Under the pieces are notes generated by a model. That model did not search any database, was not told where the DNA came from, and saw only the letters and a list, made by a program, of their open reading frames with translations. A stretch of DNA of 34,200 bases. Origin: a virus. The first letter of the stretch is position 1, and each line of letters begins with the position of its first letter. The DNA lies in the IMG/VR virus record IMGVR_UViG_3300030380_001726, positions 1 through 34,200 of that record. One strand, written 5' to 3'. A program made the position numbers and the translations under genes. Of this stretch, positions 1-34,200 are shown one piece after another.

Positions 1-99
1 CGAAGAGGAATACGAAGTATATAAAAAGAGTTTAAATAAAGAATACGAAATAATAATTGGTGTTCCCACTATTGGACTTCAAAGAAACTTTATAGAGAA
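1..99. repeat. Terminal direct repeat, left copy (circular-assembly overlap)
   Basis: Bases 1-99 are identical to bases 34102-34200; identity stops only at the window edge. The reading frame of the glycosyltransferase continues perfectly across the joined ends. This is best explained as the overlap left when a circular or circularly permuted genome is assembled. A true terminal repeat of the virion is possible, but 99 bases inside a coding gene is a typical k-mer-sized assembly overlap. Confidence 0.95.
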
Positions 100-652
100 G
101 TATTATAAAGAGGGTACTAAGTTAATAATGATTGATGATGATATCGATCAAGTATTGCGTAAAAAAGAAGATACGCTTGTACCTTTAGTAGATTTAGAAA
201 AAGAATTTATAATAGAGGGTTTCAAACAATGCGAAAAAGCAGGTGCTAAAACTTTCGGTATGTATGCAGCAGCTAATCATTACTTTATGAAAGAACGTGT
301 ATATAATAAAATATGCTATATAATTGCATCAATGTTTGGTGTAATTGTAGAACACGATCCTTTCTTAGAACGATATACTAATCACGGAGAAGATTATGAA
401 TATAGCATAAGGCAGTATATCAAAAATGGATGTTTAGTTAGGTTTGATTATATAACCGCTAAATCAAATTATTATAAAGAGCCAGGAGGTTTACAAACTT
501 TTAGAACCGAAGAGAATATATATAATTCAATAAAGTGGATACAAGATGAGTTTCCTGATTATTGTACAATGTATATTAGAAAATCGACCGGTCACGCTGA
601 ACTGCGACTGAGAGATAAAGCTGGTGATAAACAACAAGTAAAATTATTTTAA
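1..652 (+). CDS. TET-associated (TAGT-type) glycosyltransferase, 3' part
   Basis: C-terminal part of the gene starting at 33974; bases 1-99 duplicate 34102-34200. Numbered over the joined 259-residue protein, a metal/nucleotide-sugar DDD motif sits at about 88-90 (context LIMIDDDIDQ), the DxD equivalent of GT-A enzymes. A GED motif lies at about 172-174 (NHGEDYEYS), in the place where this family carries its catalytic or acceptor-side acidic residues. The protein is one compact domain with no signal peptide or membrane segment, so it should act in the cytoplasm on DNA. The DnaA-like gene follows 13 bases downstream. A generic GT-A enzyme acting on another acceptor is the alternative, but direct overlap with a TET/JBP gene argues strongly for DNA glycosylation. 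Confidence 0.8.
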   Translation, partial: EEEYEVYKKSLNKEYEIIIGVPTIGLQRNFIEKYYKEGTKLIMIDDDIDQVLRKKEDTLVPLVDLEKEFIIEGFKQCEKAGAKTFGMYAAANHYFMKERVYNKICYIIASMFGVIVEHDPFLERYTNHGEDYEYSIRQYIKNGCLVRFDYITAKSNYYKEPGGLQTFRTEENIYNSIKWIQDEFPDYCTMYIRKSTGHAELRLRDKAGDKQQVKLF

Positions 653-29422: not shown

Positions 29423-30320
29423 AGGTTTAGTAACATACAAATCACAAGTAGATAAGTTAAACGCCATTAGGCGTGGCGAAATACAAGAGGGTTTATCATT
29501 AGGTATCGAGTCAATAGATGAGTATTGGAGATTTAAATATAATTCTTTCAATATAGTTTTAGGACACGCAAGTACTGGTAAAACAACAACTCTACTATAT
29601 ATGCTTCTTTTGTATTCTATAAAATATGGGTTAAAGTTTTTAATTTATAGTGCAGAAAACGAAGCAACTAGCATAAGTAAAAAGTTAGTAGAATTTTTAA
29701 CAGGTTTACCATTTCATAAAATTGATGATAAAACTTGGTTAGAAAAATTAAAATGGGTGGATAAACATTTTAAGTACATTGACATCGATGAAGTTTATAC
29801 TGCTACAGAATTATTGAACAAAGCATCTGAAATAAAAACAGATTTTAATTATTCGGCATTAATGATAGATCCATATAATTCTTTATTAAGAGATAAGGAA
29901 ACAATGAAATCACACGGTGCGCACGAGTACGATTATGCTGTAATGTCAGATATGCGTTTATTTACAAGAAGAAATAAGTGTTCAATATATTTAGTAACTC
30001 ACGCAGTTACAGAAGCGTTAAGGCATAGGCACCCACACAACCATATGTTTGCCGGTTATATAACACCACCAAGTGCAGGTTCAGCAGAGGGTGGAGGTAA
30101 ATTTTTAAATAAGTCAGATAATTTTATGATCTTACACAGATATACAAATCATCCTGAACTTTGGACCAATACGTTTTTAGCAGTAATAAAAATAAAAGAG
30201 ATTGACAGTGGCGGTAGACCTACACCATTAGATAACCCGATAGTATTTAAATCAATAGCTAATAATGTTGGCTTTAGTTTAAATGGTAAAAATTTATTAC
30301 ATTTAATTAAAAAGCGTTGA
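29406..30320 (+). CDS. DnaB-like replicative helicase (RecA-fold ATPase only)
   Basis: A 304-residue protein with the ATPase of the DnaB/RecA superfamily but no N-terminal DnaB domain. Walker A is GHASTGKTT (about 53-61) and Walker B LMIDPYNS (about 152-159); LVTHAVTEALRHRH carries the sensor-like His. ATG at 29406 is chosen; GTG at 29400 is possible, both inside the end of the previous gene. The ring ATPase should unwind the phage replication fork, with the host polymerase and primase completing synthesis as no others are encoded. Its short length suggests dependence on accessory factors, such as the SSB-tail protein upstream. Confidence 0.75.
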   Translation: MTSHSKGLVTYKSQVDKLNAIRRGEIQEGLSLGIESIDEYWRFKYNSFNIVLGHASTGKTTTLLYMLLLYSIKYGLKFLIYSAENEATSISKKLVEFLTGLPFHKIDDKTWLEKLKWVDKHFKYIDIDEVYTATELLNKASEIKTDFNYSALMIDPYNSLLRDKETMKSHGAHEYDYAVMSDMRLFTRRNKCSIYLVTHAVTEALRHRHPHNHMFAGYITPPSAGSAEGGGKFLNKSDNFMILHRYTNHPELWTNTFLAVIKIKEIDSGGRPTPLDNPIVFKSIANNVGFSLNGKNLLHLIKKR

Positions 30321-30868
30321 TTCTTGAAAAGGCATTTGAAAAACATAAAACGTGGGTCAGGGTAGTTGTATCATTTGGCTGTAATAAAGAAACCGCCGAA
30401 GATATCGTTCAAGAAGCGTATCTAAAAGTTCACGATATGACACTAAAAGGCAAAGACCTTTGGTATAAAGATGAATTAAATTATTGGTATATGTATAAAA
30501 TATTAAGACATTTATATTTGCATTTAAAAATAAAAGAATCAAAAATAAAGATTGCAGAACATTTTGCTAAAAATGAATATGGTCAAACTAAGAATATTTG
30601 GAGAGACGAAGAAGTTTTAAAAGCACCTACGTATGTAAACTATAAACAATTTGATGAAAAGTTTGAAAAGGTTTTATCAGAATTAACTTGGTATGATCGA
30701 AGCATTTTTGAGTTGGTTAGTTCAGGTAAAAAAATATCAGAATTAAGTAGGGAAACAAATATAAATTATGTATCATTGTGGAATACATATACTAAAGTAA
30801 AAAATTATTTAAAATCTAAAATAAAAAATTATGATTGGTTTAGGGGATTTGATAGAAAAAGTAATTAG
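30317..30868 (+). CDS. Sigma-70 family RNA polymerase sigma factor
   Basis: A 183-residue protein with regions 2 and 4. Region 2 has AEDIVQEAYLKVHD (27-40), the core-binding helix, and DELNYWYMYKILRHLYLH; region 4 has LTWYDRSIFELVSSGKKISE and a helix-turn-helix LSRETNINYVSLWNTYTKVK. It is ECF-sized, without region 1.1 or 3. The start is TTG at 30317, overlapping the helicase stop (TTGA), and the gene overlaps the next small gene by 38 bases. It should bind host core polymerase and redirect it to phage promoters, perhaps those marked by the TATTATATATAT box of the late genes (inference). Confidence 0.8.
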   Translation: MILEKAFEKHKTWVRVVVSFGCNKETAEDIVQEAYLKVHDMTLKGKDLWYKDELNYWYMYKILRHLYLHLKIKESKIKIAEHFAKNEYGQTKNIWRDEEVLKAPTYVNYKQFDEKFEKVLSELTWYDRSIFELVSSGKKISELSRETNINYVSLWNTYTKVKNYLKSKIKNYDWFRGFDRKSN

Positions 30869-31944: not shown

Positions 31945-32143
31945 TGATGTATTAACAAAATTTTATGAGACGATACAGGTTTTATATAATGAGTTTTCTA
32001 CAGTACCAGAGTACGGCAGTAAGATTGAAGTTGATATATTCAAATTTATATTTGAGTTCACAATGGTTGATAAGGTGTATTCTTATGACGGTGAAAAATT
32101 AGAAATTAAATTAGTGTACGAAAAAACAAAAGAAATAATATAA
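31898..32143 (+). CDS. Small acidic early protein, unknown
   Basis: An 81-residue protein. From the ATG at 31898 it reads MKIEILPEIKGEMPNDDVLT; an internal ATG at 31934 (MPNDDVLTKFYETIQVLY) would shorten the overlap with the previous gene from 47 to 11 bases and follows a GGGGAG sequence, so the true start is open. The remainder, EVDIFKFIFEFTMVDKVYSY, is alpha/beta. The TAATG junction at 32143 couples it to the exonuclease. No family recognised. Confidence 0.55.
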   Translation: MKIEILPEIKGEMPNDDVLTKFYETIQVLYNEFSTVPEYGSKIEVDIFKFIFEFTMVDKVYSYDGEKLEIKLVYEKTKEII

Positions 32144-32925
32144 TGAAAGAAATAAAATTACTTGACGGAAAGTTTTACGATACAAAAGAATTATTATCAA
32201 AAATGTTAGATGATGATTTCTATTATGGCTTTATGCATAAATTTGCATTCAGTTCTTCTAGCATTAAATTATTGTTAGAATCTCCAAAAACATATCACAA
32301 CGTTATGACTTACTCACAGAATGAAAAACAAAGTCAAGCGTTAAGAGATGGTTTCCTTTTACATCTATTAGTTCTTACGCCAGACTATTTTCATAAACAA
32401 ATATTTGTAGACGTACAAAGTAAAAATACAAATAAGTTTAGATTAGCACAAGAAGAACACGGAGAGGTATATACTATAAAAGAAAAAGAAGATGCTGAAA
32501 GATTAGCCGATGCAGTATTTCGTAATGAACCTGCTATGCAAATAATAAAAGGTGCTAAAGTTGAGTTTCCTGGAGTAGGTGTAGTTCAAGGAAAACCATT
32601 CAGGGCTAAAGCCGATGTATTAAGAGATGATTGTATTATAGATTTAAAAACAACAAGTAACATAAAACAATTTGAGAAAGCAGCTAATTGGTATCATTAC
32701 GATGTACAAGCATATTTATATACAGAAATATTTGGTATAAAAAATTTTAAATTTATAGTTATAGATAAAAAAAGTTGCGACATAGGTATAAGCACTAAAC
32801 CGGTCAGCGATGATTTTATTTCAAGCGGTCGCGATAAAGTAAGATATGCGATGAGAGTGTATAAGGATTATTTTGAAACCGAGGAAACAGATTTAGATAG
32901 TTATTATATAGACATCAAGTTATGA
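32143..32925 (+). CDS. Exonuclease VIII/RecE-like PD-(D/E)XK exonuclease
   Basis: A 260-residue protein with the signature of the RecE/exonuclease VIII group (PDDEXK, DUF3799-like): FSSSSIKLLLESPKTYH and LRDGFLLHLLVLTP near the N-terminus, the core KPFRAKADVL (Asp158) and CIIDLKTTSN (Asp167, Lys169), then YHYDVQAYLYTEI (about 185-195). It should chew one strand of dsDNA ends to give 3' tails for recombination. Recognisable annealing proteins (RecT, Erf) are absent, so the partner may be the OB-fold-like protein at 28410. It overlaps the next gene by 4 bases. Confidence 0.8.
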   Translation: MKEIKLLDGKFYDTKELLSKMLDDDFYYGFMHKFAFSSSSIKLLLESPKTYHNVMTYSQNEKQSQALRDGFLLHLLVLTPDYFHKQIFVDVQSKNTNKFRLAQEEHGEVYTIKEKEDAERLADAVFRNEPAMQIIKGAKVEFPGVGVVQGKPFRAKADVLRDDCIIDLKTTSNIKQFEKAANWYHYDVQAYLYTEIFGIKNFKFIVIDKKSCDIGISTKPVSDDFISSGRDKVRYAMRVYKDYFETEETDLDSYYIDIKL

Positions 32926-33146
32926 AACTATTTGAATACGAGTTTCCAAAAAACGAAGAGCCAAAAGATGATACTGAAATCACAAACGCACTCTTGTATT
33001 TTACACACGCTAACAGAGATAAATTTAAAAAGCTATGTAAAAAAGGTATGGAGGTAGAATATAACAAAGAAGAATTAAAAACCGCAAACATATCTGATTT
33101 TTTATTATATATATTAAATAAGAATTATGGAGAAGATAAAATTTAA
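32922..33146 (+). CDS. Small acidic early protein before the TET gene
   Basis: A 74-residue protein: MKLFEYEFPKNEEPKDDTEI, then ANRDKFKKLCKKGMEVEYNK. It is helical, with an acidic start and a basic middle. It overlaps the exonuclease (ATGA) and extends 20 bases into the TET/JBP gene, so it is translated with both. I do not recognise it. It could be an accessory to the modification or exonuclease enzymes, on position only. Confidence 0.55.
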   Translation: MKLFEYEFPKNEEPKDDTEITNALLYFTHANRDKFKKLCKKGMEVEYNKEELKTANISDFLLYILNKNYGEDKI

Positions 33147-33993
33147 AAGAGTTCTTACTGAACAACAAGGTCACGAACTTGCTAAAAAACATATAGGGGA
33201 AGAATATATAAAAACATTAATCACTAATGATGCTGATGGTTATGATATGTATGGTAACCTATTATTTAAGTTTAGGAAAAACGTTATACCTATTGACATA
33301 CTAAAAGCAGGTGTAGATAATTTTAAAGATAGTATTGAGTGGACAGAAAGCAGGGGTGCAGCCAGTGGTTTTAGTGGAAAAAGAACTAGGGCTGACGGTA
33401 GCATATCTAACACAAGTGTCGGTGCAAAAGTTGAATCTGGAGTTGTAGGGTTTATGGATAAAAGTGCAATGATTAGATATTGTAGGAAAACAGCTTTTAC
33501 TAAAAAATATTTTGATAACTATCAAGAGGGGTTACCCTTTGTAAAATTCGTTGATGAGCAATATAAAAAATTATGCCCTGAATATTATAATAGGCAGAAA
33601 AACATTGCCGAGGGTACAAATCAAAATTATGTAATTCCTGACACAAGTTTTACAACTGTGACTGTAAACAAAAATTTTAGAACTGCGGTACACAAAGATG
33701 CTGGAGATTTTAGTGAGGGGTTTGGAAATTTAGTTGTTTATCGTGAGGGTGATTGGGGTGGTGGATATTTTATTCTACCAGAATATGGTGTTGGTATCGA
33801 TTTAAAAAATACAGATATTTTATTTGTAGATGTACATAAGTATCATTGTAACACAGGGTTTACTAATTTTACAGATGATTGTTTACGCGTGAGTTTCGTG
33901 CTTTATTATCGTGAATATATGTACAAGTGTAAAGCACCCAAAGACGAATTATTAAGAGTAAAAATAGATCAAGGTGGATATCACAGATTATAA
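33127..33993 (+). CDS. TET/JBP-family 2-oxoglutarate/Fe(II) DNA base dioxygenase
   Basis: A 288-residue protein. The double-stranded beta helix is complete: FTTVTVNKNFRTAVHKDAGD carries the HxD iron ligands (His189, Asp191), DVHKYHCNTGF the second His (His240), and CLRVSFVLYYRE the 2-oxoglutarate arginine (Arg254). The substrate-side ESRGAASGFSGKR (75-85) and GFGNLVVYREGDWGGGYF (198-214) agree with phage members of the TET/JBP group. It should oxidise the methyl group of 5-methylcytosine or thymine in DNA to hydroxymethyl. Its end overlaps the glycosyltransferase start by 20 bases, so the product is probably passed on for glycosylation. No C5-methyltransferase is present in the genome. Confidence 0.9.
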   Translation: MEKIKFKRVLTEQQGHELAKKHIGEEYIKTLITNDADGYDMYGNLLFKFRKNVIPIDILKAGVDNFKDSIEWTESRGAASGFSGKRTRADGSISNTSVGAKVESGVVGFMDKSAMIRYCRKTAFTKKYFDNYQEGLPFVKFVDEQYKKLCPEYYNRQKNIAEGTNQNYVIPDTSFTTVTVNKNFRTAVHKDAGDFSEGFGNLVVYREGDWGGGYFILPEYGVGIDLKNTDILFVDVHKYHCNTGFTNFTDDCLRVSFVLYYREYMYKCKAPKDELLRVKIDQGGYHRL

Positions 33994-34200
33994 CATAGCG
34001 ATTCCTTCGTATAAAAGACCGGAGGTTATTAAACAGAAAACTTTGAGAGTGTTAAGCGAATATAACATTCCTAAAGAACGTATCAGTATTTTCGTTGCAG
34101 ACGAAGAGGAATACGAAGTATATAAAAAGAGTTTAAATAAAGAATACGAAATAATAATTGGTGTTCCCACTATTGGACTTCAAAGAAACTTTATAGAGAA
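33974..34200 (+). CDS. TET-associated (TAGT-type) glycosyltransferase, 5' part
   Basis: This is the N-terminal part of a gene that continues at base 100 of the window after circularisation (259 residues in all). The best start is GTG at 33974, because an in-frame stop at 33965-33967 excludes anything much earlier and the next residues, YNIAIPSYKRPEVIKQKTL, are a typical first strand and helix of a GT-A glycosyltransferase. The start overlaps the 3' end of the TET/JBP dioxygenase gene by 20 bases, so the two are probably translationally coupled. Known of the family: TAGT glycosyltransferases are encoded beside TET/JBP enzymes in phages and are related to the base J glucosyltransferase of kinetoplastids. 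The inferred role is to transfer a sugar to the hydroxymethyl group made by the neighbouring oxygenase. The sugar donor cannot be told from sequence. Confidence 0.8.
   Translation, partial: MDITDYNIAIPSYKRPEVIKQKTLRVLSEYNIPKERISIFVADEEEYEVYKKSLNKEYEIIIGVPTIGLQRNFIE
34102..34200. repeat. Terminal direct repeat, right copy
   Basis: Exact second copy of bases 1-99. Joining 34101 to 1 removes the redundancy and gives a circle of about 34,101 bp in which all genes are intact. Confidence 0.95.

Follow-up and report, generated by a model that had tools for sequence, protein, structure and literature searches.

Which base of the phage DNA would be modified by a TET/JBP dioxygenase that is encoded directly in front of a TAGT glycosyltransferase, and what would be placed on it? 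This question is raised by the window, the whole stretch of 34,200 nucleotides analysed here, in which an earlier note had recognised a DNA hypermodification operon. Curated HMMs and structure searches support that overall reading. We consider it rather probable that the pair is a two-step, post-replicative operon of a marine phage in which thymine is converted to 5-hydroxymethyluracil (5hmU) and a clamp-docked TAGT then forms glycosyl-5hmU (base J or an isomer).

The gene pair and its circular genome

The window represents a phage contig that closes into a circle of 34,101 bp through a 99-bp end repeat (1-99 = 34102-34200); on this circle, the TAGT gene encodes 259 aa and ends at 652 (Table 1). 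The earlier note was right that this gene crosses the junction to 652, whereas the range it assigned to the operon, 33127-34200, cuts the second gene. An assembly artefact was rejected because the joined gene is found intact in locus L020, where it is identical letter by letter over the circle junction. The TET and TAGT genes share 20 bases (33974-33993), as previously recorded.

Table 1. Features of the operon and its flanks in the window
Feature	Coordinates	Strand	Remarks
Exonuclease-VIII-like gene	32143-32925		Upstream of TET; Pfam and PHROG matches
Small protein, 74 aa	32922..33146	+	Directly 5' of TET; 20-base overlap with TET start
TET/JBP 2-oxoglutarate/Fe(II) dioxygenase, 288 aa	33127..33993	+	Predicted base-methyl hydroxylase
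TAGT glycosyltransferase, 5' part	33974..34200	+	GTG start at 33974; enters circle junction
TAGT glycosyltransferase, 3' part	1..652	+	DDD and GED motifs; stop 650-652; 1-99 repeat 34102-34200
Codons for C-terminal pentapeptide QVKLF	635..649	+	Putative beta sliding clamp-binding motif of TAGT
Conserved gene, 145 aa	666..1103	+	3' boundary of exchanged second gene; homologue in 51 neighbourhoods

The first protein matches the Pfam family Tet_JBP (PF12851) with an E-value of 8.5e-24 (84.1 bits, cut-off 34.9). Its AlphaFold model has a pLDDT of 93.4, and its best PDB matches in Foldseek are NgTET1, TET2, CcTET and CMD1 (E 1e-12 to 1e-9), in agreement with the TET/JBP identity first proposed. The full set of 2OG-Fe(II) ligands noticed earlier is present as H189, D191, H240 and R254, which are invariant in a set of 55 sequences and invariant or nearly so in a set of 64. 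A PDB sequence search with single proteins returned nothing relevant, TET2 was recovered with a TET profile, and NCBIfam yielded no model for TET or TAGT. The predicted activity of this enzyme is the oxidation of 5-methylcytosine (5mC) or thymine in DNA.

The second protein matches Pfam PF20691 (1.6e-12; 48.2 bits, cut-off 27.5) and PHROG 842, a beta-glucosyl-HMC-alpha-glucosyltransferase (1.3e-19). With these two Pfam E-values, chance open reading frames were rejected for both genes. The DDD (88-90) and GED (172-174) motifs are present as described, and R15, D89 and D174 are invariant across 46 TAGTs. Its predicted structure has a pLDDT of 91.9; the structure comparison suggested in the earlier note was run and did not place the protein outside the GT-A/TAGT enzymes, since the top PDB fold matches are GT-A-type enzymes and the matches in a viral structure library are TAGTs, including a beta-glucosyl-HMC-alpha-glucosyltransferase. 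The protein is predicted to transfer a sugar to a hydroxymethylpyrimidine in DNA.

Of 61 family members, 60 carry a homologue of the 74-aa protein just 5' of TET, and Pfam and PHROG searches gave no convincing match for this protein. In the sister group L077-L101, this gene is replaced by a ParB-like gene. Downstream of the operon, the terminase follows the 145-aa gene. A weak sigma-70-like match was found at 30317-30868 of the window (PHROG 1740, 3.6e-4), which is possibly a phage sigma factor.

A nearly constant TET followed by different second genes

A total of at least 586 TET relatives were found in viral contigs by profile scan, from which 80 were kept for analysis, and five were found in bacterial genome contigs; the window-type TET is therefore mainly a phage gene. 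Among cultured phages, the closest one found was Nonlabens phage P12024L. It infects a flavobacterium and encodes a TET that is 65% identical, a TAGT and an N6/N4-type DNA methyltransferase, the last lying directly 3' of the TAGT (L002, 18039-18674). Clustering of the genes around TET gave 59 TAGTs, 30 P-loop kinases and 27 ADDT-like transferases, and the TAGT adjoins TET or sits within a few genes of it in most TET loci of the clade. The ParB-linked sister group additionally carries a glutamine amidotransferase (GATase) and a GNAT protein near TET.

The second gene is exchanged at gene boundaries next to a near-constant TET. TETs that are 96-99.7% identical were observed to precede a TAGT, a P-loop kinase, or an ADDT-like transferase together with a kinase. 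As an example, the TETs of L051 (ADDT-like and kinase) and L052 (TAGT) are 99.65% identical and those of L015 (kinase) and L016 (TAGT) are 96.2% identical. The L015 and L016 contigs are 93% alike until one base beyond the L015 TET stop, and a 97% match sets in again just after the kinase or the TAGT, so that the second gene alone differs. The match between such cassette-swapped contigs restarts just 5' of the 145-aa gene. The same type of swap was observed between L011 and L006, where the two TAGTs are about 25% alike. On the TET tree, we count around ten changes between TAGT and ADDT/kinase, an approximate figure from a quick tree in which some forks are weak.

Kuttervirus (ViI-like) and Coopervirus phages encode relatives of the ADDT-like transferase of L051. 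This transferase has no match of its own to Pfam ADDT, which is matched by the L077-type members of its cluster, and its putative link to ADDT runs through Cr30/L077-type members and the ViI-like homologues. The kinases are only weakly similar to named families.

Further genes were noticed around TET in the relatives. The L077-L101 operons have the order ParB-TET-GATase-GNAT-ADDT-kinase, which suggests a further base decoration of the amide or acyl type. A PDDEXK-like gene of 149-160 aa with a G.EIK.D motif lies directly 3' of TET in 25 loci (L031-L033, L035, L036, L038-L045, L047, L048, L050-L055, L067, L070, L075 and L095) and is not present in the window operon. In Coopervirus Zemanar, gp2 (L111, 785-1759) is annotated as a queuine tRNA-ribosyltransferase and sits between ParB and an ADDT-like gene; this position, together with the weak match of the window TET to PHROG 6059, which bears the same name, suggests that gp2 is a TET/JBP protein.

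Thymine or cytosine as the predicted modified base

The earlier note left the substrate at a pyrimidine methyl group, which is supported and can be narrowed, most probably to thymine, by the absence of a C5-methyltransferase match and by the exchange of the second gene. A search for the C5-cytosine methyltransferase family (PF00145) found no match in the circular genome of the window, nor in six complete phages that carry a TET (P12024L, HTVC112P, DLP_6, Cr30, C48C1 and S-CBWM1), and a thymidylate-synthase-type hydroxymethylase (PF00303) was likewise not found in the window genome. The characterised 5mC route is therefore unsuited to the window. Because near-identical TETs serve both types of module and the window and its six complete relatives show no C5-methyltransferase, thymine is the likelier substrate. 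It is also predicted because the enzymes swapped in beside TET belong to thymine hypermodification. In the phages ViI, M6 and phiW-14, a 5hmU DNA kinase first phosphorylates 5hmU, which is then decorated (PMC6449724), and a thymidine hypermodification system is annotated for the ParB-tet-aGPT-kinase genes of phage Tonitrus (PMC11955845).

The main alternative is that 5mC comes from a C5-methyltransferase of the host or from one that escaped recognition, and that TET would oxidise it to 5hmC before the TAGT adds a sugar. Phage TETs have been described as 5mdC enzymes (PMC11404850) and a T6-type TAGT acts on glucosylated hmC (PMC13216743). Furthermore, PF00145 is matched on nine related contigs and in phage Melnitz, in some cases near TET, and the Melnitz enzyme, an HhaI-like C5-methyltransferase, is encoded directly 5' of its TET; part of the family may therefore use 5mC as its substrate. 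Most of the contigs are fragments, so that a missing match on them says little. Against this route in the window stand the complete genomes above, the swapping of the TAGT for enzymes of the thymine hypermodification type, and the finding that near-identical TETs occur with and without a C5-methyltransferase on the contig (L054 and L052, 98.6%). We regard the cytosine route as unlikely for the window.

Residue D194 was considered as a specificity marker, as it aligns with the N of the HRDLHN stretch of TET2. It was dropped because the C5-methyltransferase-linked TET of Melnitz also has D and the residue cannot separate cytosine from thymine. The CpG odds ratio is 0.76 in the window and 0.95 in P12024L, a difference to which no meaning can be attached.

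In the favoured thymine reading, the TET/JBP protein would act on a base of the phage DNA, most likely thymine, and hydroxylate its 5-methyl group to yield 5hmU; with an NDP-sugar as donor, the TAGT would then glycosylate this hydroxyl, giving glycosyl-5hmU, that is, base J or an isomer. Both the base and the sugar are predicted, as is the protective role, in which glycosylation probably blocks host nucleases. A 2019 paper gave glucosylated 5hmU as unreported in phages.

Two further explanations concern the purpose of the pair. Polysaccharide synthase GT-A folds are among the PDB matches of the TAGT, which could then glycosylate a host or phage surface structure with its adjacency to TET being incidental; this is very improbable and was rejected on gene context, as the TAGT lies beside or near TET in most loci of the clade and overlaps it by 20 bases, its family is defined by TET association, kinase-type enzymes are exchanged at the same position and its tail is clamp-like. 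Alternatively, oxidation could be the whole purpose, serving to remove a methyl mark of the host while the second enzyme just traps the product; this recalls the animal TETs that work in demethylation (PMC12730594) but is likewise very improbable, since a further-decorating enzyme is found among the genes 3' of TET in most loci and removal of 5mC leaves the ADDT/kinase versions unexplained.

The TAGT tail and the place of the operon among known systems

Despite low identity within the family, a Q..[LIM]F sequence forms the extreme C-terminus in 51 of 59 TAGTs. Among 13 representatives that are at most 50% identical, six have the exact tail motif and none has internal copies. This ending was also observed in six kinases and, for the 150-aa PDDEXK-like protein, in 16 of 25 copies; it was not found in TET, ADDT, ParB, terminase or the other neighbour families tested. 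The motif is missing from the TAGTs of Cr30, S-CBWM1, Donny and Klevey. In the TAGT model, the QVKLF region has a pLDDT of about 55 in the last block, consistent with a flexible C-terminus. The consensus of C-terminal beta-clamp motifs is QLxLF (PMC4549789), and, judged from its sequence, the tail is likely to bind the host beta clamp. A family A polymerase (PF00476, the polymerase family searched) was not found in the window genome, and no polymerase-like long ORF was seen by eye. QVKLF would probably dock the TAGT on the clamp of the host, and such docking would direct modification to new DNA near the fork. The T4 alpha-GT binds the gp45 clamp, a contact that the same study found not to be the main determinant of the modification ratio (PMC13216743).

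More tentatively, we propose a joint reading for small marine phages, in which TET hydroxylates DNA thymine and the decoration is an exchangeable cassette that transfers a sugar, a phosphate or an amino-acid-type group. Several of the cassette enzymes would be tethered to the host clamp, and in the window the outcome would be a base-J-like glycosyl-5hmU.

Operons of a phage TET and a TAGT are as such already known and are recorded in the Pfam family name. P12024L and the Acadianvirus/Coopervirus mycobacteriophages have TET followed by TAGT as in the window, with an extra N6/N4 DNA methyltransferase in the former and ParB in the latter, and the ParB-TET-TAGT-deacetylase-kinase operon of Donny carries extras that the window pair lacks. 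Cytosine hypermodification by a phage C5-methyltransferase, TET and glycosyltransferase (Burke 2021, as far as it is reported in PMC11404850 and PMC12730594) shares the dioxygenase and the glycosyltransferase with the window, where in contrast no C5-methyltransferase was found, the pair is minimal and the second gene is swapped in relatives. The kinetoplastid base J pathway (JBP1/2 and JGT) follows the same predicted logic of 2OG-dependent hydroxylation of DNA thymine and then glycosylation. The window differs in belonging to a phage, in using a TAGT as transferase and in the size of its TET, whose 288 aa leave no space for a separate J-DNA-binding domain; its product is predicted. Kinase and ADDT-like genes, as in the thymidine hypermodification of ViI, M6 and phiW-14, replace the TAGT in near-identical-TET relatives of the window; those phages incorporate 5hmdU during replication, whereas TET is predicted to generate it within the DNA of the window phage, which also has a glycosyltransferase. 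The pair without a C5-methyltransferase, the cassette exchange and the tail motif seem to be new here, though a 2013 prediction paper may foresee some of this.

The phage TET chemistry described so far acts on 5-methylcytosine. If the thymine reading is true, base J-type chemistry would occur in bacterial viruses, carried out by a minimal two-enzyme system, and the cultured relative P12024L makes this chemistry directly testable. Replacement of the second enzyme with single-gene precision next to a near-constant TET has the look of a means by which phages vary the end group of their DNA, and modification-dependent host defences would be expected to select for such variation.
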